From Verrucomicrobia bacterium Tous-C9LFEB (lineage in GTDB: Bacteria; Verrucomicrobiota; Verrucomicrobiia; Methylacidiphilales; UBA1321): a stretch of DNA of 64,000 bases. The notes under the pieces were generated by a model. The model worked only from the letters and a program-made list of their open reading frames with translations. It ran no database searches and was not told the origin of the DNA. The translations under genes and the position numbers were made by a program. The stretch is from the NCBI GenBank assembly GCA_002304345.1, contig NEUU01000009.1, forward strand, positions 103,428 through 167,427. Direction: 5' to 3'. Positions 7,203 through 63,905 of the stretch are shown here, one piece after another (position 1 is the stretch's first letter; each line of letters starts with the position of its first letter).

Positions 7203-7928
7203 TTACTTTCCACTCCAAAACGTATCCGATGCTGACGTGGGGACTGTGCTCAACGACATCCACTCCACATGCCCGTCGTAGAAAAGAAAATTGGCTCCGG
7301 CTGTATGGGATATTAATCCCCAGTACTCATTGTATCCGCTCCAGTCGCCAAGGGGAAAGCTGACTTCCGCGACCATGACGGTGCGCGTGGCATAGGTCGC
7401 GAGATTGAGTCGGATGGGTGTCGTCCAGCGCGCGCTCCAAGGGAGATCTGCGGCCATGGTCAATGGCCCGCTATTGAGTCCGTAGGAAAATTTGTTGCTG
7501 TTGATTTCGTTGGCCCGGGGATTTTTCACGGCGAATTTCATGGACGGACAACGAAAGATATTTTTGCCTTTCGCCGGCGGCAATTGGCATAGGTCAAAAA
7601 CTTTAAACTGAAAGGCAGAGGAGCTATAACCAGCATATTCCCAGATGGCTTTTCCCCAGGTGTAGTCTTGACCGGGCGGTGGCCAAGAGGTGGAGACTGG
7701 CGGCAGCATGCCGTCATGATCCGAGGCATAGGTGAAAAGTGCCGACGCGATTTGCTTGAGATTGTGTACGCATTCTGCGCGACGAGCGCCTTCCCGCATG
7801 TTCTTCACGGCTGGCAGGAGTAGCGCGATCAAGACGGAAAGGATCGCCATCACGACCAACAGTTCCATCAAGGTAAGTCCGAGACGATCATCGCCTTTGA
7901 ATTTTCTGAGTGAAAAGCGATTTTTCAT
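7203..7928 (-). CDS. Pseudopilin-like protein, prepilin-type cleavage/methylation domain with C-terminal DGHVE
   Basis: 241 residues from the ATG at 7928; an upstream in-frame ATG at 7952 is also possible. The N-terminal prepilin signal is [24 protein letters not shown] with the conserved Glu five residues after the cleavage site. Then comes the typical [22 protein letters not shown] segment and near the C-terminus [11 protein letters not shown]. Such proteins are numerous in planctomycete, lentisphaera and verrucomicrobial genomes, are processed by the prepilin peptidase and are probably exported by type II/IV-pilus-like machinery; their role is unknown. Two homologous cassettes occur in this window (40623 and 59548). 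Confidence 0.9.
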
Positions 7929-8300
7929 AACTGAATTGTGACAGCGCGGCAAAATAGCTTCAAGGATTGCAGTCGTAATCCCTCTTTTAGCAGTGATCTA
8001 TGATCATAAAAAAGTGACTTATTGCCGTTTTGGTTTTTGCCGGACTACGGACATATGACTAGGGTGGCTATATTGCAAAGCGGATCTTTCACGTGCGAGT
8101 AGGTGGAAAATAGTCGTTGCGCTAGAGATTCGATGTTGGATCAATGATTAAAGAATAATGGGTAGTAGGCCCATTCGCTTTTGCCCGGATATGGGGTCGG
8201 CGTTAAATTATGAAGTATTAAGGAGCCCATGACGGATGCTGGCTGGCAGGGAAGAGAATGTTTTTTTTCACGCTGTTCGGCATTTCAGTGGTTGTAAATT
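7929..8300. promoter_or_regulatory. Divergent intergenic region with TGATC-N3-GATCA palindromes
   Basis: 372 bases without a gene between the minus-strand pseudopilin and the plus-strand GH5-like gene. It contains TGATCTATGATCA at 7994-8006 (arms TGATC/GATCA, 3-base spacer) and a weaker copy GGATCAATGATTA at 8138-8150. Identical-pattern palindromes occur at 29768 and 36719. I infer operator sites controlling one or both flanking genes. Confidence 0.5.
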
Positions 8301-9779
8301 ATGACGAATGAAGAGCTGGTCGGCCAAAGATCGGCAGACGAAGGAACGACTGGTTTGTTATTGGAGTCCGAACCACGGAGTGAGATCCGTTCGGTCGCTG
8401 TTTATGGCCATAGCCATATTACGCCGAGCCCGCGCCATGCTCGCTATTTTGAAACGGTGGAAGGTCGAACCTATATCCCCATCGGGTTGAATCTTTGCTT
8501 TCCGCGTCATGTCGTGAAGCGCGAAGAGGGGCTGAACAAAATGTTTCGCTGGCTGGATCGACTGTCCGAGAATGGCGGAAATTTCGCGCGCATTTTCATG
8601 GGACACGCCTTCTTTGATATTGAGTCGGGTGACTTCGGGACATTCGATGAGGAAAAGGCGTCCCGACTCGATGCCGTGCTCGAGTACGCATGGCAGAGGG
8701 GCGTTCGCTTGAAGCTGACGATCGATCTGTTTCGTACGGTCGAGGAGGCTGAGCAGGCCGAGATTTTTCCCGGTGCTGTAAGTTTCTCAAAGCCCAATTT
8801 TCACACGTCCAATAATGGTCGTTTCGAAGACATGGATGACTATCTGTTGAGCCGCGAAGGCAGGGCGCACTTTTTGCGCAAGCTGGATTGGCTGGCAGAG
8901 CGGTATGGGGATCATCCGGGAATTTTTGGTTGGGATTTATGGAATGAAATGAACGCTGTCAGCAGCGTGCATTGGCAATCTTGGACGCGCGAAATGCTGG
9001 TGGAGCTCAAGAAGCGATTCCCCAGACATCTTGCGATGCAAACGCTGGGTAGCATGGATGGGGACGACTCGGTCAGGAATTACGAAACCATTATGCCGTT
9101 GGCCAGTAATGAGGCGTCCCAAGCGCATCGTTATCTGGATGCCGGGGCGCGCTACGCTATTTGTCATGGCCCTGTTGATGTCATGATGGCCGATGCCGTT
9201 GGGATCTTGCTACGCGTGGCGCCGGGTAAGCCTGCCATTCTGGCGGAAGGTGGTGCCGTGGAGCGGCAACATATCGGGCCGTGGCTTTTATATCCGTCGG
9301 ATACGGAGGGTATCGTTTTGCATGATGTACTCTTCGCGCCATTTTTTGCCGGAGCCGCTGGTTGCGGACAGGCATGGCATTGGCAGGAGTATGTCGATCC
9401 GAATCATTTGTGGGCACATTACGCTCGATTCGCCAAAGCTATTGAGGGGGTTGATCCAATCGAACAACGACTGACGCCCGAGTGTTGGGAAGCGAATGAT
9501 CTCCGCGTTTATGCCTTGGTCGGACGGACGCAATGTTTGGTCTGGTGCCGGGAGACTCATTCGGACTGGAGGACAGAACTGGTCGATCATATCCCGGCTG
9601 GAGTGGTGAAAGGCGCGAAGGTTACGCTTCCGTCACGGCTGGGGTCCAATTGGCAGGGGCGCTTTTATGATCCGTGGACGAATCGCCAGTCAGAACCACA
9701 GGCGATTGTCGATGGATGTGTGAATATTCCGGATTTCCGTCGCTCCATGGTTTTGCGGCTGGAACGGGTCGAGGAATAA
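8301..9779 (+). CDS. Cellulase-type (GH5-like, clan GH-A) glycoside hydrolase
   Basis: 492 residues with no signal peptide, so an intracellular enzyme is likely. The TIM-barrel signature is present: YIPIGLNLCFPRH (residues 58-70), NGGNFARIFMGHAFF, LDAVLEYAWQRGVRLKLTID, then FGWDLWNEMN with the expected acid/base E216, and PAILAEGGA with the likely nucleophile E316. A beta-sandwich tail follows (about 390-492). The closest general description is the cellulase superfamily (GH5 and relatives); the family and substrate cannot be fixed by reading. It starts a same-strand run with the GH39-like gene (15 bases on) and the MDR dehydrogenase. Confidence 0.75.
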   Translation: MTNEELVGQRSADEGTTGLLLESEPRSEIRSVAVYGHSHITPSPRHARYFETVEGRTYIPIGLNLCFPRHVVKREEGLNKMFRWLDRLSENGGNFARIFMGHAFFDIESGDFGTFDEEKASRLDAVLEYAWQRGVRLKLTIDLFRTVEEAEQAEIFPGAVSFSKPNFHTSNNGRFEDMDDYLLSREGRAHFLRKLDWLAERYGDHPGIFGWDLWNEMNAVSSVHWQSWTREMLVELKKRFPRHLAMQTLGSMDGDDSVRNYETIMPLASNEASQAHRYLDAGARYAICHGPVDVMMADAVGILLRVAPGKPAILAEGGAVERQHIGPWLLYPSDTEGIVLHDVLFAPFFAGAAGCGQAWHWQEYVDPNHLWAHYARFAKAIEGVDPIEQRLTPECWEANDLRVYALVGRTQCLVWCRETHSDWRTELVDHIPAGVVKGAKVTLPSRLGSNWQGRFYDPWTNRQSEPQAIVDGCVNIPDFRRSMVLRLERVEE

Positions 9780-9794
9780 TTTTAACAGGCGCTT

Positions 9795-11357
9795 ATGACA
9801 TCCCATCGCGGGGACCTTGCCCGTCTCGTTACTGTTTCGCGCGGACCTCTGCGCAAACCGTGGAAAAATTGTATCGCGGTGGGGCGTGCTTACGATCTGT
9901 TGCGCGACGATTTGCTCTCCCATCTGGACTGGCTTCAGAAGGAGGTGGGATTTCGTTCCTCCCGGTTTCATGCGGTTTTTCACGATGATGTGGGAATCGT
10001 CAAGAAGACGCGCGATGGACAGATTTATTACTGCTGGAATCAGCTCGATAAAATCTATGATGCCCTACTGGCGCGCGGATTACGTCCTTTTGTGGAGTTG
10101 AATCCGATGCCCGCAGCCTTGGCCTCGGGGCCGGCCCGAATCATGCATTACAACATGAATGTGTCGCCCCCGGCCAAGTGGGAAGCCTGGGGAGAGTTGG
10201 TGGAGGCTTTCGCTCGGCATCTGGTGGAGCGCTACGGCATCGAGGAGATTCGTCAATGGAACTTCGAGGTCTGGAATGAACCGAACCTTTCCGCATTTTG
10301 GAGCGGAACCAAAGAGGATTATTTTCGTTTGTACGAGACGGCGGCATGGGCGTTGAAGCGGGTCGATTCGACTTTGAAAATCGGTGGGCCGGCCTCATCG
10401 AAAGCGCATTGGTTGGGCGATTTGATCGCGTATTGTCATGCGAACCGCGTGCCACTCGATTTCATCTCCACGCATCTTTATCCTCAGGATGAGCAGGTCG
10501 AGGCGGGGCAGGGGAAATCGCCCTACGCACCGGGAGAATTCTTTCGCGAGATGTTCCTTGGTGTGCAAAAGCTGGTGCGCTCCTCGGCCATGCCCGATCT
10601 CCCCATTCATTGGACGGAATGGAATACGCAAAGCGCTGCCGACTCAGCAGGGATCACCTGGTTTGATAACGAGGCGTGCGACAATGCCTATGGTGGCGCT
10701 TTCGTGGCGCGGCAATGCTTGGAACTGGATGCCACGTGCGAGACCATGGCGTTCTGGGTGGCGAGCGATGTTTTTGAAGAGCATCCGATTCAACCCGCTC
10801 CTTTTTCAGCGACGTACGGAATCGTCACGATTGATGGAGTGCCCAAGGCGGCCGCGAATGCTTTCCGACTGCTGAATCGTTTGCGAGGCAATGTGGTCGC
10901 GGAAGTTTTCGATGCGCCTCTTGGATGTGGTGGTGCCGTCACGCAGGAAGGGGCGGTCACGCATGCGCTCTTTTATAATTGTCAGCCGCCTTCCGAGAAG
11001 AATCCGGGAGACTGGTTGACAACGTTTGCGCTGCCTGCTGTAGCGGGGGATCGGTTGATTACGCGTTTGTTCGTCGGACCCGAAGCTGGCAGCCCTTACG
11101 AATGGTGGTGCCGGATTGGCCGCCCCATGCATTTGTCGTCTGCGCAATTGGCCGCAATGAGGCAGATTGCAGAACCGAAAAGTGAGACATGGCTGGAGAA
11201 ATCGGGAGACGAGCCGTGTAGATTGGCTGTAGATCTGCCCGCGAATACCTTTGCGTATTTTGAAATTCGTCCGGCAGAACCCTCCGCCCCGCGCAAGAGC
11301 GAATGGGCGGATCTGAAATTAATCGAGGAGGAGCTCGGCGAATTGTCACGTGAGTAG
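9795..11357 (+). CDS. GH39-like glycoside hydrolase (beta-xylosidase family)
   Basis: 520 residues, near the usual GH39 length. Strong GH39 features are seen: DDLLSHLDWLQKEVGFRSSRFHAVFHDD (about 38-65), QWNFEVWNEPNLSAFWSG with acid/base E162, LDFISTHLYP (221-230) and IHWTEWNTQSAAD with nucleophile E275. GH39 enzymes are beta-xylosidases or alpha-L-iduronidases; the xylanase and arabinofuranosidase elsewhere in the window favour xylosidase. No signal peptide is evident, so it probably trims imported oligosaccharides. It lies 15 bases after the GH5-like gene and 102 bases before the dehydrogenase. Confidence 0.85.
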   Translation: MTSHRGDLARLVTVSRGPLRKPWKNCIAVGRAYDLLRDDLLSHLDWLQKEVGFRSSRFHAVFHDDVGIVKKTRDGQIYYCWNQLDKIYDALLARGLRPFVELNPMPAALASGPARIMHYNMNVSPPAKWEAWGELVEAFARHLVERYGIEEIRQWNFEVWNEPNLSAFWSGTKEDYFRLYETAAWALKRVDSTLKIGGPASSKAHWLGDLIAYCHANRVPLDFISTHLYPQDEQVEAGQGKSPYAPGEFFREMFLGVQKLVRSSAMPDLPIHWTEWNTQSAADSAGITWFDNEACDNAYGGAFVARQCLELDATCETMAFWVASDVFEEHPIQPAPFSATYGIVTIDGVPKAAANAFRLLNRLRGNVVAEVFDAPLGCGGAVTQEGAVTHALFYNCQPPSEKNPGDWLTTFALPAVAGDRLITRLFVGPEAGSPYEWWCRIGRPMHLSSAQLAAMRQIAEPKSETWLEKSGDEPCRLAVDLPANTFAYFEIRPAEPSAPRKSEWADLKLIEEELGELSRE

Positions 11358-11459
11358 TGCGGTTGCCGCTATTTTTTATCAAATACCACAGCCGAAAAAC
11401 ACCAATAATCGCTGTTTATTCGAATGGGATACAAGGTCGCAGTGTAGTCTAGTAGTGGC

Positions 11460-12633: not shown

Positions 12634-13314
12634 ATGATCAGCGCCACCAGTAAATTGCAGGTTATTCACACGGAGCTTTGCGACAAGATCCTGCGCGGGG
12701 CATTTCAATGCGGGGATCGTCTCCCGACTACGGAAGAGTTGGCCAAGCAGTTTGACTGCAGCGTGGGAATGGCCAGCAAGGCGATTGCGATGTTGGTTCA
12801 CTCGGGGTTGGTGGAGCAGCGTCGTGGCTTGGGGACCCGGGTGTTGAAGAATGTAGAAGCGGAGACTGGTTCGTCTCTGGATTTGAATGCGTTTGTGTTC
12901 ATCTATCCCAGTGAAAAGCACGAGGGAATCTGGCGTACGGTCAAAGGCTTTCAGGATGCGGCGCAGGAGCAGGGGCGTCGGACCATTACGCTGACCACGG
13001 GCACGGATTATAAAAAGGAAGGCGAGTTGATCGGTCGTCTCAAGGAATTTGACGTCAAAGGGGCGGCGGTTTATTCGACGATTTCTCTTGTTCTGGCGTG
13101 TATCCATATACCGGGGATGAATCGCATCAAGATTGAGTATCGGCGCGGTGAGAACAAGGTGTCGATGTATGTGAACGATCAGAAGGTTCTCGGTGGCTTT
13201 AATCTGGAGAAGCGCGGGTTCATTCCTGATGCGGCCTATGCGGGTGTGACGGGGTATGGCCAGGTGGCCGATCAGCAAAGCGTGGATAACGTGGTGCTGA
13301 CGTTGCAGCCCTGA
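12634..13314 (+). CDS. Chimeric GntR-type regulator with a LamG-like C-terminal piece
   Basis: 226 residues. Residues 1-75 form a GntR-type winged helix (CGDRLPTTEELAKQFDCSVGMASKAI, EQRRGLGTRV). Residues 86-147 match, almost residue by residue, the start of the LacI-type sensor domain of the regulator at 58402 (KHEGIWRTVKGFQDAA against QHEGIRRTANGFQDAA; GRLKEFDVKGA against GRLSEFDVKGA). After about residue 150 (near base 13084) the similarity ends. The remaining 75 residues (NRIKIEYRRGENKVSMYVND, ADQQSVDNVVLTLQP) instead look like the end of a LamG/jelly-roll domain such as those at 60266 and 60983. The sensor domain is therefore truncated. It reads as a deletion fusion of two genes; DNA binding may survive, effector sensing should not. 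Confidence 0.75.
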   Translation: MISATSKLQVIHTELCDKILRGAFQCGDRLPTTEELAKQFDCSVGMASKAIAMLVHSGLVEQRRGLGTRVLKNVEAETGSSLDLNAFVFIYPSEKHEGIWRTVKGFQDAAQEQGRRTITLTTGTDYKKEGELIGRLKEFDVKGAAVYSTISLVLACIHIPGMNRIKIEYRRGENKVSMYVNDQKVLGGFNLEKRGFIPDAAYAGVTGYGQVADQQSVDNVVLTLQP

Positions 13315-39444: not shown

Positions 39445-40470
39445 ATGAAGCACGCTCCAACGCTGGCCGATATTGCGAAAATTGTCGGAGTGACTCCGAT
39501 GGTTGTCAGTGATGTCTTGAAAAAAAGGAATGATCGTATCCGGGCCTCAGAAGACACCCGGGCCAAGATTTTTCAAGTCGCCAAACAGCTTAACTACCGT
39601 CCCAATGGCTCGGCGCGCGCCATGCGCCAAAACCATTTCAACAATATTGGTTATCTTTCGATTCAGAACGACGATGATTACACGATTGAGGCCATCGAAA
39701 GCGGCATTTGTGAAGTGGCCAACCGGCGCAATTACCGCATCACTTTGATCAAGCATCGGTATGACTGGAATCCTACTGAGTCCGATATTCCCGCCATCTA
39801 TAGAGAGGCTCATCTTGACGCGCTCATTGTCAACATCTGGCGCCATTCGTTGCCGGCCATTGCGGAGAATCTGCTGACGAACGCCGGTTTTCCCATTCTT
39901 TTTTTCAACGACAAAAGACGGTATAACTCTGTCTATGCAGACGATTTGCTCGGCACGCGGTTATTAATGGAGCATTTATTCGGGCAGGGGTACCGGAGGA
40001 TTGCATTTCTGACCTTCAAGAAAGAGCGTATTGGAATTTCTTACAGTTTCACGGACCGGCAGAGGACGTACGAATCGCTCATGAAAAAGGCCGGGTTGAA
40101 GCCGGAAGTGGCCACCATGGAGAACCATCCATTTTTGGATGAGGTCAAGGCGTGGGTGAGGGATTCACGGCCGGAAGCCATCATTTGCACGAACGACAAC
40201 CAGACCTATGTGGTTCAGCGCGCGCTCTATGAGCTGGGATTGCGATCACCCGATGATGTGGCGATCGCGGGTTTCAATGGTGAGATTTTATCCCGTATTT
40301 CACCGGTTCCCTTGACGACCATCCGGCTTCCTTTTCTCAAGATGGCGCATACGCTGGCAGAGATGGCGATCAACCTTTCCGAGTCACCGGAAAAGGGGCC
40401 ATTGCCCTCGGTCAAATTCAAGCCGGAGTTGGTGGTGGCGGCTTCGACGCTGCGGTCAGTCAAGGCATGA
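39445..40470 (+). CDS. LacI-family transcriptional regulator
   Basis: 341 residues. N-terminal LacI helix-turn-helix and hinge: TLADIAKIVGVTPMVVSDVLKKRND, DTRAKIFQVAKQLNYRPNGSARAMR. The periplasmic-binding-protein-like sensor covers the rest (NNIGYLSIQ, LFGQGYRRIAFLTF, EAIICTNDNQTYVVQRALYELGLRSPDDVAIAGFNG, PLTTIRLPFLKM). Typical LacI length is about 330-350. Usually represses until an inducer sugar binds. The GATATA-N4-TATATY sites around the gene make it the obvious candidate for their ligand. Confidence 0.92.
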   Translation: MKHAPTLADIAKIVGVTPMVVSDVLKKRNDRIRASEDTRAKIFQVAKQLNYRPNGSARAMRQNHFNNIGYLSIQNDDDYTIEAIESGICEVANRRNYRITLIKHRYDWNPTESDIPAIYREAHLDALIVNIWRHSLPAIAENLLTNAGFPILFFNDKRRYNSVYADDLLGTRLLMEHLFGQGYRRIAFLTFKKERIGISYSFTDRQRTYESLMKKAGLKPEVATMENHPFLDEVKAWVRDSRPEAIICTNDNQTYVVQRALYELGLRSPDDVAIAGFNGEILSRISPVPLTTIRLPFLKMAHTLAEMAINLSESPEKGPLPSVKFKPELVVAASTLRSVKA

Positions 40471-40622: not shown

Positions 40623-41339
40623 ATGTGGTCGCGATCCCATCCCAAAGCTCGTTTTCGTGCTCCCAGCTTCAGCCTGGCTGAACTGCTCGTGACGGTGGCC
40701 ATTATCTCGATCTTGGCGGCGCTTTTGTTGCCTGCTCTGCAAAAGGGCAGGGTGGCTGCCCTGAAGTCCAAAGGGGCTGGAAATCTTCGTCAGACGGGCG
40801 TGGGAATTCTCGCCTACGCGGGTGATCACGATGGTTATTTCCCGGGGCCGTGCTCCTTCGGTACGTTGCCGTTTTACAACTGGAACGCGGTCCCCATGGG
40901 GGTACTGGCCGGATTCATCGGACCTTATCTGGGGTCGCCGGATTTGCTGGCGGCGCGCAATTATTCCTCGTATATGACCGTGTCCAGTCTTGTCTCGCCG
41001 GGCTTGGTGGCGTGGAATATCTCGACGCTCCAGACCAACAGCCTTGTACCTCATTATATCCAGAATAATACCCTGACGAACGCCGGCTCTGCGTTTCGTA
41101 TCCTTGGCAGCGTCACTACGCCTTGGGTCCAGCAGCCTTTGAAGGTGATGCAGCTTTCCACATTTGGCGATGTCAGCCAGGTCTGGATTTTGAGCGACGT
41201 GGATCAACAATTGAACAATCCGACGGTCTCTGCCAGTGGCTGGTATGGTTCACTTCCTCCCCGGCCCGTCTATCGCGACATTCGTCTGAGACTCTATGCG
41301 GATGGTCATGTCGAGGCGATCAGTATCAACGCGCCTTAA
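40623..41339 (+). CDS. Pseudopilin-like protein, prepilin-type domain with C-terminal DGHVE
   Basis: 238 residues. Prepilin signal SFSLAELLVTVAIISILAALLLPALQKG, then NLRQTGVGILAYAGDHDGYFPGP and a C-terminal RLYADGHVEAISINAP. Same organisation as the proteins at 7203 and 59548. The unit begins downstream of LacI operator site 2, and the stop codon overlaps an ATG (TAATG at 41337-41341) in frame with the next gene, indicating translational coupling. Function of this class is unknown; export through a pilus-like secretion machine is inferred. Confidence 0.88.
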   Translation: MWSRSHPKARFRAPSFSLAELLVTVAIISILAALLLPALQKGRVAALKSKGAGNLRQTGVGILAYAGDHDGYFPGPCSFGTLPFYNWNAVPMGVLAGFIGPYLGSPDLLAARNYSSYMTVSSLVSPGLVAWNISTLQTNSLVPHYIQNNTLTNAGSAFRILGSVTTPWVQQPLKVMQLSTFGDVSQVWILSDVDQQLNNPTVSASGWYGSLPPRPVYRDIRLRLYADGHVEAISINAP

Positions 41340-41362
41340 TGGCCGCTTTTTTTCCTATCTAT

Positions 41363-43988: not shown

Positions 43989-45944
43989 ATGAAAAAATCA
44001 TCGAAAATTACGGTGTTGCTTGGCTGTCTCGCGCTGCTCGGCGGGGTCAATGCCTTCTCCCAAGTCTGGACTGCGGCAGGCTCTGGAGCTTGGACGACGG
44101 ATGCAAACTGGAGTACGGGTGTCGCTCCGGTTTCCTCCAACGTCTCGATCGTTTCCATCGACGATGCGTTGGCCGCGGCGAGTCAAACGGTCACTTTGGA
44201 TATCAGTGGTATTAACTACAACGTTGGTTCGTTCACATTGTCAAACAGCGCGGGTGCAGGCTTTACGAATACGCTTTTGCTGACGAGCAGTGGAACGGCG
44301 ATCGGTACTTCGATTTTTAACGTGAACGGCGCTCTGTCCTTGGGCTCGCCGAGCGGAACGGTCGAAATTCGCTTGAGTCCCTCCGTCAATGCCGGTTTCT
44401 CGCAATTGAGCGCCACGGGTGGTATCACGGTCAATTCCGGCGGTTTGATTACGCTCGATGGGACGACTGGCACTACGGTTAATGCCAATGTGAAAAGTCC
44501 GGTCACCCTCAGCGGTGGTACAATGAGTGTGCTCGGCGGTAGCGCGTCGGGTGGCGTAGGACAGGCACTTACCATGACGAGTGGTGTCATTACATTTGAT
44601 AAGAATGCGGCGTCGACGGCTGGTCGTTTGACGATTGGCGGCGATTTCAACGCCACTGGCGGCGCGATTACGGCCAATCATTTTTCCGGTTCGGCCAACA
44701 TCATTGAATTGTACGGAGCGAATAATACGCTCAGCGCGGTCACGATCAATAACAGTGCCAATCTCTCGTTTTCCTTTCGCGGGACAACCAATCAGTCGCT
44801 GACTTCCTCTGTCGATCTGCCGAGCCTGATCTTGCGCAATGGCAAGATCAATACCGTTACGCTGACGAGTGCAGCCCAGAACACCGGATCGATCAGTTTC
44901 CTGAATTCACCGACGACGCTCAAACTTGGCAGCGATATGAATACGATCGCGACACCCACGATTTCAGCGGTTGCGGCGGCGGGATCGGGTATCGATGCGA
45001 ACGGTCATACATTTAATGTAACGGCTGGCACGCAATGGAATCTCGCCAACAATATGAATTTGACGTCGTCGGCTGCGGGCGGTCGATTCAAAGCCAACTC
45101 CTACGCCTTCGGCAATGGAACGATTGGGAGTAATATCATTGTTGAAGCGACCGGTGGTGGTGGCGCTACCAATACCCTCGATACGGCAACCTTCAATCCC
45201 ACTTCGACATTGTTATTTTCGGGAAATGCCACAACAACCAGCCCGGTGGTGCTGCGCGTCAGTGGTACGACTCAGACAGTCGGCAACCTGCAGGTCGGCA
45301 CGGGGACCAGTGCCACCAGCGTTGCCATTCAAAGCAATAATCTGGTCATGGCTGGCAATCTCAGCGTTCTGTCTAACTCAACACTTGATCTCAACGGACG
45401 CGCCCATACGTTGTCCGGCTCGCTGCAGGGTAACGGGATGGTTCGGGTCGGAGCCAATGCCAACTTGGTTTTTAATTCGACGGGTGGCATTTCTCCGGGT
45501 TTTGGCGGCGCGGGTATAGGCGCTGGGTACGTTGGTGGACTGAGTCTCGTGGGCACGGCCACTTCAGGAAAAGTTTTGACGCTGAATAGCGCCTCGGTCT
45601 CTTTCTTCGATTTGAGCAGTGATGTCTCGTATGACAGCGTGTCGGCGGGCGGGTTCAATCTGACGCTGGACGGTCAACTCGTTATCAATCTGATCGATGG
45701 GTATACTCCCATGACGATGGGGCAAACTTGGACGATCTTTACCGGCTTGGGCAGCGGCACAACTGGTAATTTCTCGTCTATTCTCAGTAATTCTGGGGAG
45801 ACGTTTTCATTTGCGATTAATGGGAGTGGTAACGGCATCCTGACGCTCACTTCCATACCTGAACCGTCGACCTGGATTCTCCTTCTGTTCTCCGTGCTAA
45901 TTTTGGGAAGGGGACTTCTTCGTAGCCGTTGGAGCGCTCTCTAA
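43989..45944 (+). CDS. PEP-CTERM protein with autotransporter-type beta-strand repeats
   Basis: 651 residues. Signal peptide (ITVLLGCLALLGGVNAFSQ), N-terminal VWTAAGSGAWTTDANWSTG as in autotransporter-associated repeat proteins, then a long beta-helical, Thr/Ser/Asn/Gly-rich region (GNLQVGTGTSATSVAIQSNNLVMAGNLSVLSN, TLDLNGRAHTLSGSLQGNG). C-terminal PEP-CTERM signal: IPEPSTWILLLF, hydrophobic helix, LRSRW. An exosortase-processed surface protein, possibly a scaffold or adhesin. It lies under operator site 3, and the GH10 gene follows 57 bases on. Confidence 0.88.
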   Translation: MKKSSKITVLLGCLALLGGVNAFSQVWTAAGSGAWTTDANWSTGVAPVSSNVSIVSIDDALAAASQTVTLDISGINYNVGSFTLSNSAGAGFTNTLLLTSSGTAIGTSIFNVNGALSLGSPSGTVEIRLSPSVNAGFSQLSATGGITVNSGGLITLDGTTGTTVNANVKSPVTLSGGTMSVLGGSASGGVGQALTMTSGVITFDKNAASTAGRLTIGGDFNATGGAITANHFSGSANIIELYGANNTLSAVTINNSANLSFSFRGTTNQSLTSSVDLPSLILRNGKINTVTLTSAAQNTGSISFLNSPTTLKLGSDMNTIATPTISAVAAAGSGIDANGHTFNVTAGTQWNLANNMNLTSSAAGGRFKANSYAFGNGTIGSNIIVEATGGGGATNTLDTATFNPTSTLLFSGNATTTSPVVLRVSGTTQTVGNLQVGTGTSATSVAIQSNNLVMAGNLSVLSNSTLDLNGRAHTLSGSLQGNGMVRVGANANLVFNSTGGISPGFGGAGIGAGYVGGLSLVGTATSGKVLTLNSASVSFFDLSSDVSYDSVSAGGFNLTLDGQLVINLIDGYTPMTMGQTWTIFTGLGSGTTGNFSSILSNSGETFSFAINGSGNGILTLTSIPEPSTWILLLFSVLILGRGLLRSRWSAL

Positions 45945-46001: not shown

Positions 46002-47807
46002 ATGTGCCACGTATATGCCGTCTTAGGCGCGTTTCTGCTTGCGCTTGATCTTGCCTCCGTGCAGGCGGAGCCCATAGATATTTTTCCCGATGCCTTGCAT
46101 CGCCTCGAAGTTCTCAGTCCAGGACCGGAGGCGGCGGAAACGCGGATCGTTCCTGTGGAAGGTCAGGATTTCGAGCAGGCACTGGAGGCTAAGACTATCC
46201 AGGGCACCCAGTGGCCGTGGGGGATTCAATTCATGGCGTCTGTTCCGGTAGAAGTCAGAAATGGTGATGTGATTCTCGCGGAGTTTTCCCTGCGAACGAT
46301 TGCCGCGACGGCTGAAAGTGGCGAAGGCAAGACCCAACTCTCATTCGAAGAAAAGGGGGGAGGATTCTTAAAATCCCTCACCTACGATGCCTGCGCGGGG
46401 CAAGCTTGGAAGAGATTCCAAATTCCATTTCGCGTGATCGGAGTCAAAGGAAAGGATTACGCGCCCAATGAAGCGCAGATTGGTTTCCGACTGGGATACC
46501 GTGGCCAGACCATTCAAATCGGTGGCATCCGGATCGTCAATTATGGGCAGGATTATGATATATCTTCCTTGCCCGTGACTCGACTGGATTATTCCGGACG
46601 TGATTCGAAAGCCGCATGGAGGGCCGCCGCTCAGCGTCGAATCGCGGAGTTGCGCCAAGCCCCGTTGATTGTGCAAATTGTCGATGCGGCGGGAAAACCG
46701 GTCTCTGGTGCGACCGTGGACGTACGCATGAAGCGGCATGCATTTCGTTTTGGCAGCGCGGTGGATCTGCAATTCTTTTCGGGTAACGCGCCGGATAACC
46801 AGCGGTATCGCCAGTTCGTGCTGGATCACTTCAATCAGATCACGCCGGAAAACGATTTGAAATGGGATTATTGGGAAGCGAACGTTTCCCGGCGCGAGGA
46901 GACCGTTGAGGCACTCAAGGACCTTAAAAAAAGTGGTATTCGTATTCATGGTCATAACCTGATCTGGCCGGGGTTCGGGGTGATGCCTCGCGATATCAAA
47001 TCACTTCTCGCCGACCGTACCGCGCTGGATAAAAGGATTGCCGATCACTTTACCGAGATCCTCGGACAAACGCATGACTTGGTGGAGGAGTGGGATGCGG
47101 TGAACGAACCCTATGCCGTGCGACCTATCCTGGAGCGCTACGGAGATGGTCTCGTGGGAGATTGGTTTGCCCTGGCCCATCGAATCGACCCGGCTCCTGT
47201 CCTCTATCTCAACGACTATGCGAACTTCCAAAATAATGGTGACGATACGGCGCATAAGTTGGATTTCGAAAAGCGATTGAAAGATTTGCTGGCGGCAAAA
47301 GCCCCGGTTCAAGGCATCGGCATGCAAGGCCATTTGGGCGGCATGGTCTGCTCCCCGGAGGCCGTGCTTAAGGAATTGGATCGCTTCGCCAAAATCGGAC
47401 TTCCCATCCAGATTACGGAATTCGACATCGACGCGACCGATGAGAAGTTGAAGGCCGACTTCACGCGTGATTTTATGACCGCCTGTTTCAGTCATCCTGC
47501 GGTCATCGGATTTAGCAGCTGGGGATTTTGGGAGGGCCGACATTATCTGCCCGCCGCCGCGATGGTGCGCCAGGATTGGTCATTCACTCCGTGGGGAAAG
47601 GCGTGGTTTGACCTGGTGGAGAAAACGTGGTGGACCAAAGCTTCGGGAACTTCGGATGCGGCGGGCAAATATCAGGTGAATGGATTTTTGGGCGACTACA
47701 CGATAACCGTCAAATTTGGCGGCAAGGAAGCGGTGGTTTCAACCGCACTGCAGAAAGGTTCGCCTGTTCTGCAGATTCAACTCGAACATGGACCGGTCGC
47801 AAAATAG
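46002..47807 (+). CDS. GH10 endo-1,4-beta-xylanase
   Basis: 601 residues. A short signal peptide (AVLGAFLLALDLASVQA) leads to a carbohydrate-binding-like domain (to about 185), then the GH10 barrel: RHAFRFGSAVDLQFFS, FNQITPENDLKWDYWE, IRIHGHNLIWPGF, EEWDAVNEPYAVR with acid/base E369, VQGIGMQGHLGG and PIQITEFDIDA with nucleophile E473. A short beta-domain ends the protein (GKYQVNGFLGDYTITV). GH10 enzymes cut xylan main chains outside the cell. A strong Shine-Dalgarno (GAAGGAGG) precedes the ATG by 9 bases. The oxidoreductase gene starts 5 bases after the stop. Confidence 0.92.
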   Translation: MCHVYAVLGAFLLALDLASVQAEPIDIFPDALHRLEVLSPGPEAAETRIVPVEGQDFEQALEAKTIQGTQWPWGIQFMASVPVEVRNGDVILAEFSLRTIAATAESGEGKTQLSFEEKGGGFLKSLTYDACAGQAWKRFQIPFRVIGVKGKDYAPNEAQIGFRLGYRGQTIQIGGIRIVNYGQDYDISSLPVTRLDYSGRDSKAAWRAAAQRRIAELRQAPLIVQIVDAAGKPVSGATVDVRMKRHAFRFGSAVDLQFFSGNAPDNQRYRQFVLDHFNQITPENDLKWDYWEANVSRREETVEALKDLKKSGIRIHGHNLIWPGFGVMPRDIKSLLADRTALDKRIADHFTEILGQTHDLVEEWDAVNEPYAVRPILERYGDGLVGDWFALAHRIDPAPVLYLNDYANFQNNGDDTAHKLDFEKRLKDLLAAKAPVQGIGMQGHLGGMVCSPEAVLKELDRFAKIGLPIQITEFDIDATDEKLKADFTRDFMTACFSHPAVIGFSSWGFWEGRHYLPAAAMVRQDWSFTPWGKAWFDLVEKTWWTKASGTSDAAGKYQVNGFLGDYTITVKFGGKEAVVSTALQKGSPVLQIQLEHGPVAK

Positions 47808-58381: not shown

Positions 58382-58403
58382 ATTTATTGATTGATCAATA
58401 AAT
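58382..58403. promoter_or_regulatory. 22-base palindrome, candidate operator of the GntR-LacI regulator
   Basis: Two perfect 10-base arms (58382-58391 and 58394-58403, core TTATTGAT / ATCAATAA) around TG. It ends on the candidate ATG at 58402 and lies between the divergent regulator and GH78 genes. It fits an operator shared by both. If so, the second ATG at 58426 may be the true start of the regulator. Confidence 0.6.
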
Positions 58404-59526
58404 GGATTTACGATACAAAAAGAGCATGGAGACGCGATTGCCCAACGAAGTGGACCACATTTACGCTGATATTCGGGAGAAAATCCAAAGTGGACTCTGG
58501 AAATCGGGCGAGCGCATGCCTTCAGTCCGGGAATTGGCCAAGGATCTGCACTGCAGCATCGGCTCGGTAAGCAAGGCGTTGACGCTTCTCGCTCATGCGG
58601 GAATGGTGGCCCAACAACGGACCAAGGGCGGGACACGCGTGATCTGGGACGGGGCGAAATCGGCTGAGACGTCGGCGCGACTCGATGCCTACGCTTTCAT
58701 TTGTGCCAGCGAACAGCATGAGGGGATTCGACGCACGGCCAATGGATTTCAAGACGCCGCGCGGGAGAATGACCGCCGGACTTTGGTTCTCACGACCGGC
58801 AAGGATTATCGCAAGGAAGCAGAGATCATCGGACGCCTTTCGGAATTTGATGTGAAAGGGGCGGTGATTCATCCGCTCTTGTTGACGCCTGAGGATCACG
58901 CGCACTTCGCGCAATTGGTGGTGTCCTCCCGTTTCCCGATTGTGCTGACCATTAATCTGCCGGGGCTCGGTTGTCCGTCGGTGGTGGTGGATGGTTTTGA
59001 CATGGGTTACACGATGACGAACTACCTGATTCAGAAAGGAGCCCGGCGTATTGGTTATCTGTCGAACTACATGATGGCTCCCTTCATGCGCGAGCGATAT
59101 CGCGGTTATCAATGGGCTCTCAAAATGGCCGGTATCGAGGAATCTGCCGAGCGTGTGATGTTAGAGCCAGGGATGCATCCGGATTTCCGCAATCCTCTCG
59201 CGGAACCGATGCGACTGGCGGAAGTCTTTTTGAAATCGGCAGGCAAGCTTGATGCGGTGGTCTGTGCCTATGACTACCTGGCGGTGGGCATGCTCGCGGC
59301 TGCGAAGAAAATGGGCATCAGTGTTCCGAACGATCTCATGGTCACCGGAGTGGACGATATTTCTCTGGCGGCCGAGGCGGAAGTGCCGCTCACGACTTAT
59401 CGACTTAATTCGGAAGAACAGGGGCATGTACTTTTCAATGTGCTCCAGTCTTTTCTCAAAGGGGAAATCGACGGCAGCAGCGAAACGCGTTTTCGTGGCG
59501 AAATCGTCGTTCGACAAAGCGCCTGA
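58402..59526 (+). CDS. GntR-type HTH fused to LacI-type sensor domain regulator
   Basis: 374 residues. A GntR winged helix (IYADIREKIQSGLWKSGERMPSVRELAKDLHCSIGSVSKALTLL, 20-63) is fused to a periplasmic-binding-protein-like sensor (AYAFICASEQHEGIRRTANGFQDAA, LVVSSRFPIVLTINLPGLGCPSVVVDGFDMGYTMTNYLIQKGARRIGYLSNYM, LDAVVCAYDYLAVGMLAAAKKMGISVPNDLMVTGVDDI), the AraR-type architecture. This arrangement usually senses a sugar and represses hydrolase genes. It starts within or just after the 22-base palindrome and leads into the pseudopilin gene 21 bases downstream. It is the full-length relative of the truncated protein at 12634. Confidence 0.92.
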   Translation: MDLRYKKSMETRLPNEVDHIYADIREKIQSGLWKSGERMPSVRELAKDLHCSIGSVSKALTLLAHAGMVAQQRTKGGTRVIWDGAKSAETSARLDAYAFICASEQHEGIRRTANGFQDAARENDRRTLVLTTGKDYRKEAEIIGRLSEFDVKGAVIHPLLLTPEDHAHFAQLVVSSRFPIVLTINLPGLGCPSVVVDGFDMGYTMTNYLIQKGARRIGYLSNYMMAPFMRERYRGYQWALKMAGIEESAERVMLEPGMHPDFRNPLAEPMRLAEVFLKSAGKLDAVVCAYDYLAVGMLAAAKKMGISVPNDLMVTGVDDISLAAEAEVPLTTYRLNSEEQGHVLFNVLQSFLKGEIDGSSETRFRGEIVVRQSA

Positions 59527-59547
59527 CGTTTTTAACCCGAGACTGGC

Positions 59548-60261
59548 ATGCAATCGAATCTCTCCACTCTCATTGGCCGCCAGAATGCCAATGGTTTGAA
59601 TGCCATTCGCGCTGCGAGTGGGTTCACGCTGATGGAGTTGATGGTGGTGGTGGCGATTCTGGTGGTGCTGGCGGCGCTCATGTTGCCGGCATTGGAGCGG
59701 GCTCGGCAGGCTTCGGACAAGATTCGTTGCGCGAACAATCTTCGTCAGTTGGTCGCGGGAGCCATTCTTTATGCGAACGATCACGATGGTCTCTATCTAC
59801 CGCCGGTATCCAATGATTCACTTGGATTTCGCCAATGGATGTTCAATGACGATTATCTGCAGATCCTGGGATTGAAGCCCACGCAGGATCTGAAAAAACT
59901 GCCCGATCTGTTTCGTTGTTCGCGCGCAGTCCGACTGGGCAATACGATGGGCATTAGCTACGGGGCCAATATCACAGGATTAGGCATCAGTGCGGGCAAC
60001 TACAAGACCGCTGGGTTTATACCGCGTACCAAGATGGTGCCGCGTGCCTCGCAGAAGGTATATCTCATCGAGAGCCTCGACTGGTGGGTGTCATATGCCT
60101 ACGCCAACGGTTATACCAACAGCGAAGTAACAACATCGATGACTCCGGCTTATCGCCATGATCGTGGAGCCAACGTGGCTTTCTTCGACGGACATGTGGA
60201 ATACCTGAAATCAACGGACCTCATCGGCAAACAGGATGTTTGGGATATCCCTGCGTTTTAA
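59548..60261 (+). CDS. Pseudopilin-like protein, prepilin-type domain with C-terminal DGHVE
   Basis: 237 residues. Prepilin signal GFTLMELMVVVAILVVLAALMLPA (25-48), then NNLRQLVAGAILYANDHDGLYLPP and a C-terminal VAFFDGHVEYLKSTDLIG. Third of its kind in the window and again directly downstream of a sugar-responsive regulator, with a LamG-like gene starting 4 bases after its stop and a GH51 gene further on. The function is not known; such minor pilin-like proteins may be secreted or anchored. Confidence 0.9.
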   Translation: MQSNLSTLIGRQNANGLNAIRAASGFTLMELMVVVAILVVLAALMLPALERARQASDKIRCANNLRQLVAGAILYANDHDGLYLPPVSNDSLGFRQWMFNDDYLQILGLKPTQDLKKLPDLFRCSRAVRLGNTMGISYGANITGLGISAGNYKTAGFIPRTKMVPRASQKVYLIESLDWWVSYAYANGYTNSEVTTSMTPAYRHDRGANVAFFDGHVEYLKSTDLIGKQDVWDIPAF

Positions 60262-60265
60262 TTCG

Positions 60266-60922
60266 ATGAAAATAATGAATTCACTGTCATGGATGGGCCT
60301 AGGAGCGGCGCTTTTGCTCGCCGTCGCTTTGCCGTTGCGGGCTGAGAGTATTACCGATGATTTTAATCGGGCGAATACGTCGCAGGGGAATGGCGGTTTG
60401 GGTGCGGATTGGAATATCACTGGCGAGATCTTTCTCCATGAGAATCACGCCATCACGCATTACAAGGGAGAGGCCTTGGCCGTGTATGCGAAGGCGAAGA
60501 CTTCGGGAGAATTCTCCGTGGCATGCGATTTTTATGCGCTCGCGAACCGCAATTACGCGGGAGTCGTCTTTCACTTTATCGACGCGAAGAACTATCAGGT
60601 GCTGCGCGTTTCCTTCAGCGAGCAGGACGACCAGAAGACGGTCTGGCAGTGGCTGAAGTTTACGGGTGGAAAAATGGAGCTGACTGCACAGGGGGCTATT
60701 CCTGCGGGGAACATGCCCGTCAAACAATGGCGTCGACTCAGTCTGCAATCGGACGGAAAGCCCGGCGCGTATCGCTTCAAGGTAACGGACCGATCCGGTG
60801 ACACCCAGTACGCGGCAGGAGCGCTGCAGGGGGGCGACGCGGCGACTGGCGGCCAGTGTGGATTTTATTTCGGCAACGCCTACCAGTACGCGGACAACTT
60901 CAATCTGGAGTCTGGTCAGTAG
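60266..60922 (+). CDS. Secreted LamG/jelly-roll domain protein without PEP-CTERM
   Basis: 218 residues from the ATG at 60266, 4 bases after the pseudopilin stop (a longer frame would overlap it). Signal peptide WMGLGAALLLAVALPLRAES, then one LamG/DUF1080-like beta-sandwich: DDFNRANTSQGNGGLGADWN, VVFHFIDAKNYQVLRVSFS, GNMPVKQWRRLSLQSDG, CGFYFGNAYQYADNFNLES. It ends without a PEP-CTERM tail, so it should be soluble or periplasmic. The next gene encodes a clear paralog that carries the tail. A sugar-binding role is inferred from the fold. Confidence 0.72.
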   Translation: MKIMNSLSWMGLGAALLLAVALPLRAESITDDFNRANTSQGNGGLGADWNITGEIFLHENHAITHYKGEALAVYAKAKTSGEFSVACDFYALANRNYAGVVFHFIDAKNYQVLRVSFSEQDDQKTVWQWLKFTGGKMELTAQGAIPAGNMPVKQWRRLSLQSDGKPGAYRFKVTDRSGDTQYAAGALQGGDAATGGQCGFYFGNAYQYADNFNLESGQ

Positions 60923-60982
60923 CTTGCAACGCGAACGATCCCTTTACTTCAACCCGCAATCAGCCAACGAGAGAGAGAACCT

Positions 60983-61708
60983 ATGAAAACAACGATCAAA
61001 CAATTTGGACTCATGGCCGCCGTGCTGGCCATGTCGCTTGTGGCCACGCAGGCCCAGATCCTATTCACGGATAATTTTACCCGGTCCAACACCGCGTCAC
61101 CCAATGGGGGTTTGGGAACGGATTGGACCATCGCGGGGAATATGTTTCTCAATACGAATCATGCGCAGACACAGACTGCGGCGGAAAGTTTTGCTCTCTA
61201 TAATGGGGCGAGTCTATCGCAGAGTTTCAGTATGAGTGTGGACATCTATTCGCAGTCGACGGGGCGTTATGGGGGGCTCCTCTTTAACTATGTGGACTCT
61301 TCGAACTACTATGAGTTGCGCGCCAACTTTAATTCCACATCGACGGTGTGGCAATTTATCAAAGTAATTGGAGGGACTTCCACCACAGTGTCCCAGAGTA
61401 CCATCGCGGCAGGAAATATGCCCGTGGATACATGGCGTACACTCACGCTGAATTCCTCGGCAACAACAGGTCAGTACACCTTTGCCTTAACCAATGTGGG
61501 TGGGGCGACTACGTATGCGAGCGGAACGCTAACCGATACGAATTTGAGTCTGGGTGGTTCGGCTGGGTTCTACTTCTCTGGCAGCAATGCTTGGGCCGAT
61601 AATTTCAGTTTGCAAACGGTACCTGAACCGATGGTGTCGGGCATGCTGGGGATGAGCGTGTTACTCGCGTTCCTGCGTCGTCGTCGTTTATCGGACAGGC
61701 TGTCGTAA
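60983..61708 (+). CDS. PEP-CTERM protein with LamG-like domain, tandem paralog of 60266
   Basis: 241 residues; a purine-rich GAGAGAG stretch sits before the ATG. Signal peptide FGLMAAVLAMSLVATQAQ, LamG-like domain (DNFTRSNTASPNGGLGTDW, AGNMPVDTWRTLTLNSS, AGFYFSGSNAWADNFSLQ) and a C-terminal PEP-CTERM-like signal (VPEPMVSGMLGMSVLLAFLRRRR). The matching blocks show it arose with 60266 by duplication, one copy anchored and one not. Probably a cell-surface carbohydrate-binding protein working with the neighbouring GH51 enzyme. Confidence 0.85.
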   Translation: MKTTIKQFGLMAAVLAMSLVATQAQILFTDNFTRSNTASPNGGLGTDWTIAGNMFLNTNHAQTQTAAESFALYNGASLSQSFSMSVDIYSQSTGRYGGLLFNYVDSSNYYELRANFNSTSTVWQFIKVIGGTSTTVSQSTIAAGNMPVDTWRTLTLNSSATTGQYTFALTNVGGATTYASGTLTDTNLSLGGSAGFYFSGSNAWADNFSLQTVPEPMVSGMLGMSVLLAFLRRRRLSDRLS

Positions 61709-61790
61709 GCGGTTCTTTTTCTCGATTGATTACACTCGCTTCATTCTCTTGAAAAAGTTTTCAGGAGAATGGCTGATTTCCTTACTCTCT

Positions 61791-63905
61791 ATGCGCAGTA
61801 AATGGTATTCGATTACACTCGCGTTAATCGGACTTTGCACGATTCAAGCCATTGCGGCTGGCGAGCCGGAAGTGGTTCAAATCCGTATTCAAGCGGAGGG
61901 CGCGGGTGTGCCGGTGAATCCGAAAATATTCGGACACTTTATGAAGGGTGCGGACAACTATGGAATCTTCTCCGCCTCCAAGCCTGATCTGGCTGTTTTG
62001 CATGAAGGCGATGGGGTTTGGAATCCCGAGACACGGGCTCCCTATCCGCAGCCTTTCCAAATTCTGCAATCCTATCGTCCCGGCGCGTTGCGTTATCCCG
62101 ACGGACTGGGCGTCCACAATCACGACTGGAAGAAAACGATCGGTCCCGTGGAATCTCGCGGCGAGTGGAAATTCGGACTGAACGAATTCATGCAGATTTG
62201 CGAGCAGGTGAAGGCTGATCCGATATTCGTTGTCAGCGAATATATTGGCACGCCGCAGGACGCGGCAGACTTGGTGGAATATTTGAACATGCCTGCGGAA
62301 GAGCGTTACCCGTGGGCGCTCAAGCGCGCGGCGGACGGGCATCCGGCTCCCTACAAGGTAAAGTACTTCGAGATGGGCAACGAGTCGTGGGTGGATTGGC
62401 GCAAATTCGGCAAGACCAACGTTCGGCCCGCTCCCGAAGTGGGGAAATACGCTTCGGCCCTGGCGAAAGCGATGAAGGCGGTTGATCCGACGATTCGCTG
62501 TGGTGTGCCATACGGCGAGGGGGATTGGAATCGAGGCGTACTCGGGGCGATAACGAAAGATATTGATTTTGTGGTGGTGCATTCCTATCCGGTCAAATAT
62601 GGCGGAAAGGATCTGACGGGCCTCAAGGAGAAGTTGATGCTCGAATCGATGCTGACCTCCGGCTATGAGATGGTTCAGGAGTTGGCCGAAATACGTGGAC
62701 ACATCCGGGAGTTCTCCGGTCGCGCGATGCCGATTTTCATTACGGAATATAATATGGGCCCCACTCAGATGCAGTCCGGTTTGGAGCGCCCTTATCGCTA
62801 CACGCTCGCGGCGGCACTGGGAACGGGCGATTTTCTAGGACGCTTGATGCAACCCGGAGAGCAAGTCGAAGCGGCCATCTATTGGTCCTGGCTCAACGGT
62901 TTCTTCGAATCGGTCCATACCTATGCGGAGCACCCGATGAAAAGTTTGCGCAAATTGGATGAGCCGCTGCTGAGGCCCGTACATTTTATTTTTCAACTCT
63001 GGGCCCGATATCGTGGCGAAGAATTATTGAGCGTGCAGAACGACAGTCCCCGGGTCGACTTTCCCGGATTCACCCGAATGAATCCCTGCCTGGGTTCCGA
63101 AAGCCGGGAAGCGGTTCGTCTGGATGCGCGTAATATCATTGAAGGCGCGCGGGTCCTCAAGTCCGCCCAACCGGGCGTGACTCCGACGATTTCCCCGGAG
63201 GGGGAGTGGAGCATTCGCTTGGAGAATCAGACTCGCAATGCGTTCCCGAATTTACTCATCAAATCTCTGGCGGATATTCCGGCCAGCCTGCGTCCTCCTG
63301 TTCAGGGTTTGGTTTATAAAATTTCGTTCGACGCGATTTGGGAGCCGGAGGAGGGTTCGATGATGCCGAATCTCGGCATCGGTCTTGGCGATTCCCGCGG
63401 TTGGCAAGCCAGCGGTTCGGCCATCGGCACGTATGGCATTCAAGGAGCTAAGGACTGGAAGCATTTCGAGGAAGTTTACCAGCCCATGCCGGATACCGAA
63501 GGACTGGTTATTCTGGCTAGAATTGAGGGTGGAACGACTCCGATTACGGGCGTGGTCAAAATCAAGAATCTGCGAGTCGAAGCGTGGAGTCATGCCTCCT
63601 ATCCGGCGAGACCGGCATTGACGAGTTACGCGACCCGCTCGGCAGATCGCAAAAAGCTGTACCTGACGGTTTTTAACCTGACATCCGATCGGGATTTTAC
63701 GGGTCAAATCACATGGAGCGGATTCAAGGCCAAACGGGCGAAATTTTCCGAGGTGAATGCGGCGAGCGTTGCCTCGGTGAATAGCAAGGAGGTACCAACG
63801 GTCTGGAAAACGCAGGACGCGGCGCTTCCGCTCTCTTCTGCGGATCGATTGATCCATGTGTTTCCGGCTCATTCGGCGACTGGCATTGAATTGGTTGTCG
63901 ACTAG
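61791..63905 (+). CDS. GH51 alpha-L-arabinofuranosidase, secreted
   Basis: 704 residues from the ATG at 61791, which gives a good signal peptide (WYSITLALIGLCTIQAIAA); a TTG at 61749 would add 14 residues. GH51 features: VNPKIFGHFMKGADNYGI near 42-59, ILQSYRPGALRYPDGLG, VKYFEMGNESW with acid/base E198, DFVVVHSYPVKY and MPIFITEYNMGPTQ with nucleophile E319. About 180 residues beyond the barrel (near 430-620) look like an inserted or appended CBM-like domain (YKISFDAIWEPEEGS, KDWKHFEEVYQP) before the end of the C-terminal beta-sandwich. It removes L-arabinofuranosyl side chains from arabinoxylan or arabinan. Confidence 0.88.
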   Translation: MRSKWYSITLALIGLCTIQAIAAGEPEVVQIRIQAEGAGVPVNPKIFGHFMKGADNYGIFSASKPDLAVLHEGDGVWNPETRAPYPQPFQILQSYRPGALRYPDGLGVHNHDWKKTIGPVESRGEWKFGLNEFMQICEQVKADPIFVVSEYIGTPQDAADLVEYLNMPAEERYPWALKRAADGHPAPYKVKYFEMGNESWVDWRKFGKTNVRPAPEVGKYASALAKAMKAVDPTIRCGVPYGEGDWNRGVLGAITKDIDFVVVHSYPVKYGGKDLTGLKEKLMLESMLTSGYEMVQELAEIRGHIREFSGRAMPIFITEYNMGPTQMQSGLERPYRYTLAAALGTGDFLGRLMQPGEQVEAAIYWSWLNGFFESVHTYAEHPMKSLRKLDEPLLRPVHFIFQLWARYRGEELLSVQNDSPRVDFPGFTRMNPCLGSESREAVRLDARNIIEGARVLKSAQPGVTPTISPEGEWSIRLENQTRNAFPNLLIKSLADIPASLRPPVQGLVYKISFDAIWEPEEGSMMPNLGIGLGDSRGWQASGSAIGTYGIQGAKDWKHFEEVYQPMPDTEGLVILARIEGGTTPITGVVKIKNLRVEAWSHASYPARPALTSYATRSADRKKLYLTVFNLTSDRDFTGQITWSGFKAKRAKFSEVNAASVASVNSKEVPTVWKTQDAALPLSSADRLIHVFPAHSATGIELVVD

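Follow-up and report, generated by a model that had tools for sequence, protein, structure and literature searches.

The window studied here is a stretch of 64,000 nucleotides from Verrucomicrobia bacterium Tous-C9LFEB (contig C36, positions 103428-167427, of a 4.28-Mb genome assembled in 36 contigs and 89.7% complete). It contains three gene groups, pointed out in a first-pass annotation of the sequence, in which a pseudopilin accompanies a carbohydrate regulator and glycoside hydrolase (GH) genes; all three are present. The linkage is far wider than the window: the three pseudopilins belong to a 65-copy family (class A), and 46 of its members have a LacI, GntR-LacI or AraC regulator within three genes, 19 of them directly adjacent. 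Linkage to such regulators, which the annotation had expected to be enriched in related genomes, recurs in four of five relatives from the same phylum; pooled over all five, 44/71 class A genes lie within three genes of a regulator, versus 26/433 control genes.

Class A pseudopilins and their genomic neighbours

The prepilin motif gave 94 matches in the genome at E<=10, 77 of them above the cut-off. A profile built from the genome's own proteins separated 65 class A genes, including all three window pseudopilins, from 29 other pilins, the border being a profile score above 100 that we chose. Genes were called with a home-made caller that mis-set some starts, and 13 pilins that it missed or mis-called were entered from the coordinates of their prepilin-motif matches. 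A search of genome contigs with a single pseudopilin was swamped by N-termini common to pilins in general, and its output was set aside. Class A proteins are ~190-280 residues long as called and have DGH near the end in 51/65 cases, with a middle part, from the helix to the DGH end, that varies strongly among paralogues. Glutamate at position 5 of the mature helix, a residue required for pilin assembly, is kept in 65/65 (62 detected by script and three by eye). The 29 other pilins include the GspG gene of the type II secretion system (T2SS) locus, its pilin neighbours and several multi-pilin clusters.

Class A is a family of the DUF1559/H-X9-DG type. Two of the window pseudopilins (named by their first coordinate, 7203 and 59548) score above the cut-off of 19 for the H-X9-DG motif (TIGR04294) and reach the cut-off of 23.3 for DUF1559 (PF07596), one of them just so; the third, 40623, has the DGHVE end yet matches neither model. 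Identity of the window pseudopilins with GspG was rejected (TIGR01710, 31.8 bits for 7203, 27.0 for 59548 and none for 40623, versus a cut-off of 88.85). A Foldseek search with a pseudopilin model against PDB and viral models returned nothing at E<=0.001, and no clear lectin or CBM stood among the listed structure matches, which proves neither a new fold nor absent glycan binding. Another pilin type forms five three-gene clusters (G000:C12:147506-149533, C13:27738-29731, C31:37578-39410, C34:68642-70865 and C3:14018-16043, where G000 is the window's own genome), with proteins of ~200-235, 140-180 and 240-330 residues as called; 0/5 lie within 300 bp of a regulator.

Regulators were searched for genome-wide, and 49 HTH_18, 75 Peripla_BP_3 and 31 GntR matches were merged to 124 genes; the gene-level counts add seven LacI proteins that were missed by PF13377 and found with a home-made model. 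Placement was compared with shuffles that position intervals uniformly rather than gene by gene, for regulators and PEP-CTERM genes alike. The enrichment near regulators for which a genome-wide count had been suggested is borne out: a regulator lies within 300 bp of 18/68 single-pilin loci (1.4 expected; 0/500 shuffles reach this) and within 5 kb of 47/68 (16.0 expected). These placement tests rule out chance placement of the pseudopilins. For multi-pilin loci the corresponding counts were 0/10 (0.2 expected) and 5/10 (2.2 expected), a sample too small to say much.

The second recurrent partner is a PEP-CTERM-like protein, found within three genes of 48/65 class A genes; both partners accompany 37/65 and either one 57/65. 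Here, PEP-CTERM-like means a regular-expression match, and 28 of 72 such proteins match PF07589 at E<=0.001, a few being plainly false (DGC, BadF). Among the 29 other pilins, eight have a regulator and eight a PEP-CTERM-like protein within the same distance, and for 125 genes lying farther off in the fetched regions the counts are 24 and 25. In this genome the most sharply placed partner, a point that the first-pass annotation missed, is the PEP-CTERM-like gene directly upstream (position -1), present in 22/65 by regular expression versus 6/56 at position -4. When only Pfam matches were counted, a PEP-CTERM gene on the same strand ended no more than 300 bp upstream of 15/65 class A genes (0.25 expected), and one lay within 3 kb of 35/65 (7.15 expected), the values for other pilins being 0/29 and 2/29. 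Exosortase gave two matches in the genome. The remaining direct neighbours of class A genes, of which 84 proteins were scanned, contain 86 Pfam families, most commonly GH42 (6), GH5 (5), beta-helix (5), CBM9 (5) and GH10 (5). The largest cluster of neighbours comprises 16 genes (12 of them encoding 801-1171 residues) within three genes of 18 class A loci; its one scanned member, C12_179136, matches GH10 (29.3 bits) and GH42 (23.9 bits), both above cut-off.

Across the phylum, the class A profile matched at E<=1e-6 in 139/145 genomes, with at most 20 candidates scored per genome; such matches include the general pilin helix, and weak ones may be other pilins. Copy numbers were at least 150 in genome G006, 115 in G083, 35 in G128, 31 in G045, 26 each in G140 and G117, and 16 in G078, the last being weak matches only (best 1.4e-15) that may be other pilins. 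For the neighbourhood comparison the best-scoring listed genes were taken (69 chosen, 60 stretches fetched), a non-random sample set against control genes from random regions. A regulator lay within three genes of class A in 27/32 cases in G006 (control 16/81), 10/13 in G045 (6/98), 4/10 in G140 (4/92) and 2/4 in G128 (0/97), where the four recognised genes came from six stretches. In G006, a regulator stands directly upstream in 20/32 loci, 17 of them co-directional, versus 2/29 at position -4, and the gene that follows the pseudopilin shares its strand in 30/31. The 26 next genes scanned in this genome include GH42 (4), GH123 (3) and GH3 (2), and the order regulator, pseudopilin, hydrolase is frequent. 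G006 (family f15) has a 4.8-Mb genome with four T2SSG matches. PEP-CTERM-like neighbours within three genes were found in 11/13 cases in G045 (control 9/98), 5/10 in G140 (0/92) and 2/4 in G128 (12/97). These results indicate that, in this sample, regulator linkage is the wider theme and PEP-CTERM linkage is seen only in the class to which the window's own genome belongs.

What the class A proteins may do

Our preferred reading, to which we give a probability of roughly 0.45, is that class A proteins are alternative subunits of the single T2SS pseudopilus, each made only with its own polysaccharide programme and helping to export or hold the proteins made alongside it. Sugar freed from a polymer would be sensed by a LacI, GntR-LacI or AraC protein, which would then induce the pseudopilin together with the neighbouring genes. 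Once processed by the prepilin peptidase, the class A protein would be built into the T2SS pseudopilus; its globular part, which is variable, could then contact cargo or polysaccharide, as tip pseudopilins of the T2SS contact cargo. The induction, the incorporation and the cargo matching are inferred.

The genome contains one T2SS locus, with GspE, GspF, GspG, GspK, GspM and secretin matches, and its sole PF08334 (T2SSG) match lies at C3:100813. In a set of 16 genomes (all six that lack class A matches, plus 10 of the 139 that have them), T2SSG was found in 9/9 with at least seven class A matches and in 0/7 with three or fewer. This co-occurrence is support rather than proof, because the negatives come from few families. 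The first-pass annotation had proposed substrate-specific minor pilins for a type II-like machine; the linkage and the T2SS locus agree with this, whereas a match of each pseudopilin to one substrate or enzyme is conjectural. Over 136 loci, similarity between pseudopilins followed similarity between their neighbours with a rho of 0.096, versus a permuted mean of 0.042 (standard deviation 0.017), and 0/200 permutations reached the observed value. The closest 1% of pseudopilin pairs had a homologous non-regulator neighbour in 35.9% of 92 cases (rest 2.1%), and in 6.2% of 65 when only pairs between genomes were taken (rest 1.1%). Since the pairing is real but small, the evidence favours linkage of a pseudopilin to a regulated programme over pairing with a single enzyme family, and the idea of one enzyme per pseudopilin has weak support.

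A number of observations weigh against the T2SS-subunit reading. Enzyme matching is weakly supported as well as small: within genomes, the closest 1% of pairs had a homologous non-regulator neighbour in 28.6% of 28 cases (rest 5.1%), so that most lacked one, and several close pseudopilin paralogues adjoin unrelated enzymes. Regulators of the window's own genome are not sharply placed, with 12/65 at position -1, 15/64 at -2 and 12/61 at -3, and others at -4 (3/56), -5 (8/49) and +4 (9/59). In G006, control genes already have a regulator nearby in 16/81 cases, and PEP-CTERM-like neighbours are absent from class A (0/32) and control genes (0/81) alike. G083 looks like an exception to regulator linkage: despite its 115 matches, only 1/12 class A genes had a regulator within three genes (control 0/65), a count made with a regulator model that was trained on the window's own genome and may fail to recognise regulators in genomes as distant as this one, and PEP-CTERM-like neighbours numbered 0/12 although 10/65 control genes have one. 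A sigma-54 activator was seen among the class A neighbours of G083 (family f31). Kinship among the 16 genomes of the T2SSG comparison also counts here, as four of the negatives come from one family and two from another. Moreover, the window's own genome has eight PF00437 ATPase matches, two of them at C3:90545-93398; the extra ATPases possibly belong to a type IV pilus, and that pilus could serve as the class A platform instead. Finally, the first group in the window (cassette 1, Table 1) is not an operon: pseudopilin 7203 lies on the opposite strand to the AraC gene, the two standing tail to tail 5 bp apart, and it diverges from the GH5-like gene, which leaves it co-transcribed with neither. 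The grouping proposed for this cassette is therefore one of neighbourhood alone.

Alternatively, class A proteins could be glycan-capture pilins. Induced with their locus and mounted either on the T2SS or on a type IV pilus, they would attach to the polymer and draw it to the surface, taking the role that SusD-type proteins have in Bacteroidota. SusD gave no match at E<=0.001 in 7/7 genomes searched, the highly variable region from helix to DGH would suit such a role, and close paralogues beside unrelated enzymes fit glycan rather than enzyme matching. We nevertheless think capture rather unlikely, as the predicted lectin fold sits on the PEP-CTERM-like partner instead, and such partners are missing beside the 32 class A genes sampled in G006, a genome with at least 150 copies.

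Class A might also be a general passenger, an expanded family of functionally interchangeable members that are copied and carried along with blocks of glycan genes and have no locus-specific role. The weak pairing with enzymes, a copy number ranging from 0 to at least 150 per genome and the sheer size of the family (5652 of 7998 candidates scored database-wide match class A at E<=1e-10, the best 120 being listed) fit this. The preferred position and orientation of PEP-CTERM-like genes in the window's own genome and of regulators in G006, the tight junction to the next gene in two window cassettes and the universal retention of Glu5 do not, and make a pure passenger unlikely. That the association merely reflects a general clustering of surface proteins, regulators and genes for glycan use in common islands is very improbable: distant genes of the same regions do have a regulator nearby in 24/125 cases and own-genome regulators are spread over -1 to -3, but the other pilins show less (8/29 with a regulator), and both the PEP-CTERM-like gene and the G006 regulator are more frequent at -1 than at -4.

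The T2SS-subunit reading can be extended to the phylum in a speculative form that we regard as rather unlikely as a whole. Polysaccharide use in Verrucomicrobiota would be pilus-based, replacing SusCD: one T2SS platform would be served by dozens to more than 100 exchangeable pseudopilins, each with its own sugar regulator, and the substrate-tuned pseudopilus would both export and display the matching enzymes, along with exosortase-anchored lectins in some lineages of the phylum.

Three cassettes and other features of the window

Coordinates and model scores of the window features are given in Table 1. For pseudopilin 7203, the ATG at 7928 is the likelier start. In cassettes 2 and 3 the genes run in one direction, and the near-gapless junctions described earlier, a TAATG overlap and a 4-base gap, are real; they join the pseudopilin to the next gene, however, and the regulator-to-pseudopilin gaps are 152 bp in cassette 2 and 21 bp in cassette 3. 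The overlap (41337-41341) is formed by the stop of pseudopilin 40623 and the ATG of the beta-helix gene, while gene 60266 starts 4 bp past the stop of pseudopilin 59548 (gap 60262-60265). The match of pseudopilin 40623 to PF07963 (cut-off 21.2) reached 24.9 bits in the genome frame and 20.5 bits in the protein scan.

In cassette 3, the proteins encoded at 60266 and 60983 are tandem paralogues and may represent one lectin-type protein in soluble and anchored versions. Protein 60983 scores 14.9 bits for PF07589, below the cut-off of 20.7, with the motif visible by eye, and 8/11 of its homologues (itself excluded) carry PF07589. A relative of the cassette 3 pseudopilin (P0003) and one of the PEP-CTERM-like protein (P0141) each have a longest contig of 2165 bases; this shared length suggests that they probably lie on one contig, with the pair conserved.

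The gene at 12634-13314 is likely a scar left by a deleted fourth cassette, to judge from the two parts of its predicted product. Its first 125 residues share 43-58% identity (over 93-127 residues) with nine GntR-LacI regulators of the fetched own-genome stretches, and its C-terminal end resembles two genes that adjoin class A pseudopilins, the one immediately downstream of C34_59505 (46% identity over 63 residues) and the one immediately upstream of C31_63358 (34% over 65). Elsewhere in the window, positions 19758-29660 encode a 3300-residue protein in which a Pfam scan at E<=0.001 recognises the GLUG repeat alone (PF07581, summed 160 bits).

Table 1. Cassette genes and related features of the window
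Feature	Coordinates	Strand	Evidence
AraC-family regulator, cassette 1	6337..7197	+	PF12833 79.0 bits
Class A pseudopilin, cassette 1	7203..7952	-	PF07596 49.0, PF07963 23.8, TIGR04294 27.7 bits, all above cut-off; class A score 210 bits
GH5-like enzyme, cassette 1	8301..9779	+	PF00150 24.9 bits (cut-off 23.5, barely passed)
GH39-family enzyme, cassette 1	9795..11357	+	PF01229 307 bits
Probable cassette scar	12634..13314	+	GntR-LacI N-terminal part fused in frame to C-terminal end of pseudopilin-neighbour family
LacI-family regulator, cassette 2	39445..40470	+	PF00356 42.9, PF13377 93.9 bits
Class A pseudopilin, cassette 2	40623..41339	+	class A score 133 bits
Beta-helix protein, cassette 2	41339..43894	+	PF13229 35.1 bits; signal-peptide-like start seen in sequence
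PEP-CTERM protein, cassette 2	43989..45944	+	PF07589 23.9 bits at window 45852-45923
GH10 enzyme, cassette 2	46002..47807	+	PF00331 132.9 bits
GntR-LacI regulator, cassette 3	58402..59526	+	PF00392 47.2, PF13377 95.4 bits
Class A pseudopilin, cassette 3	59548..60261	+	class A score 169 bits; PF07963 24.4, TIGR04294 21.2 bits; PF07596 23.3 bits, partial and exactly at cut-off
Signal-peptide-like protein (start seen in sequence), no PEP-CTERM end, cassette 3	60266..60922	+	41% identity to 60983
Protein with PEP-CTERM-like end and predicted lectin-type fold, cassette 3	60983..61708	+	paralogue of 60266
GH51-like alpha-L-arabinofuranosidase-type enzyme, cassette 3	61749..63905	+	PF22848 (ASD1_dom) 32.8 bits, above cut-off

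Relation to known systems

Verrucomicrobiota are widely regarded as polysaccharide degraders, and the seven genomes searched gave no SusD match; the pseudopilins bear on how members of the phylum capture their substrates and export their enzymes. As a marker of glycan loci, the family also offers a way to find such loci and to pair them with their regulators, and it raises a directly testable idea, that many subunits, each induced by sugar, serve one and the same secretion machine.

No description of a regulator-pseudopilin-hydrolase linkage was found in the open-licence literature, in so far as its texts were available, and the nearest report concerns Verruconatronum alginivorum AB-alg1 (PMC13274419, 2026). 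The available part of that paper describes a pulG-like pseudopilin, pgaptmp_000050, in a gene cluster for alginate use whose members seemed to be induced together as one operon on that polymer (a single replicate proteome for each treatment), a second over-expressed pseudopilin outside the clusters, 67 pseudopilin homologues in the genome and a suggested T2SS export of alginate lyases. The earlier statement that a dedicated role for these proteins had not been described was thus too strong. What we did not find elsewhere in the open-licence literature is a count of how often such pseudopilins lie near regulators and PEP-CTERM proteins, or of how widely this arrangement occurs across the phylum. 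Related reports, again as far as the available texts go, are the expansion of DUF1559 to 74 genes in the planctomycete Rhodopirellula baltica (PMC2754498), one DUF1559 gene pair on plasmids (PMC5352709), the enrichment of pilins and pseudopilins in two Verrucomicrobiae populations (PMC12487129) and laminarin-upregulated secretion-system genes in Lentisphaerae, in a text where pilin terms were not found (PMC11361711). Pilin and secretion terms were likewise not found in the available text of PMC5615132, PMC6388578 and PMC10880615, nor anything relevant in that of PMC10540074.

One likeness, by sequence, is to the DUF1559 (SBP_bac_10, PF07596) and H-X9-DG (TIGR04294) families, through the domain matches of two of the three window pseudopilins; the available literature on these families leaves linkage to sugar-type regulators, PEP-CTERM genes and hydrolases unmentioned. 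The Verru_Chthon cassette (TIGR02596) likewise stands, going by the name of the model, for multi-copy pilin-like genes of Verrucomicrobia, but identity with its protein D was rejected, the window pseudopilins scoring 20.5 (7203), 25.1 (59548) and none (40623) versus a cut-off of 70. With V. alginivorum the likeness, drawn by description and not by sequence, lies in a pseudopilin within a polysaccharide cluster, tens of homologues and the presence of a T2SS; there, the available text reports one locus, with no regulator or PEP-CTERM linkage (PMC13274419).

The minor pseudopilins GspH-K of the T2SS share with class A the pilin helix, Glu5 and an association with the secretion of degradative enzymes. 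They are a small fixed set in one operon, whereas class A consists of 65 scattered copies near many regulators. Finally, the cassettes recall the SusC/SusD polysaccharide utilisation loci, in that each locus combines a regulator, glycan enzymes and a recurrent surface or envelope component; here, unlike in those loci, the recurrent component is a pseudopilin, accompanied in part by a PEP-CTERM-like protein, in genomes where SusD was not found (7/7).

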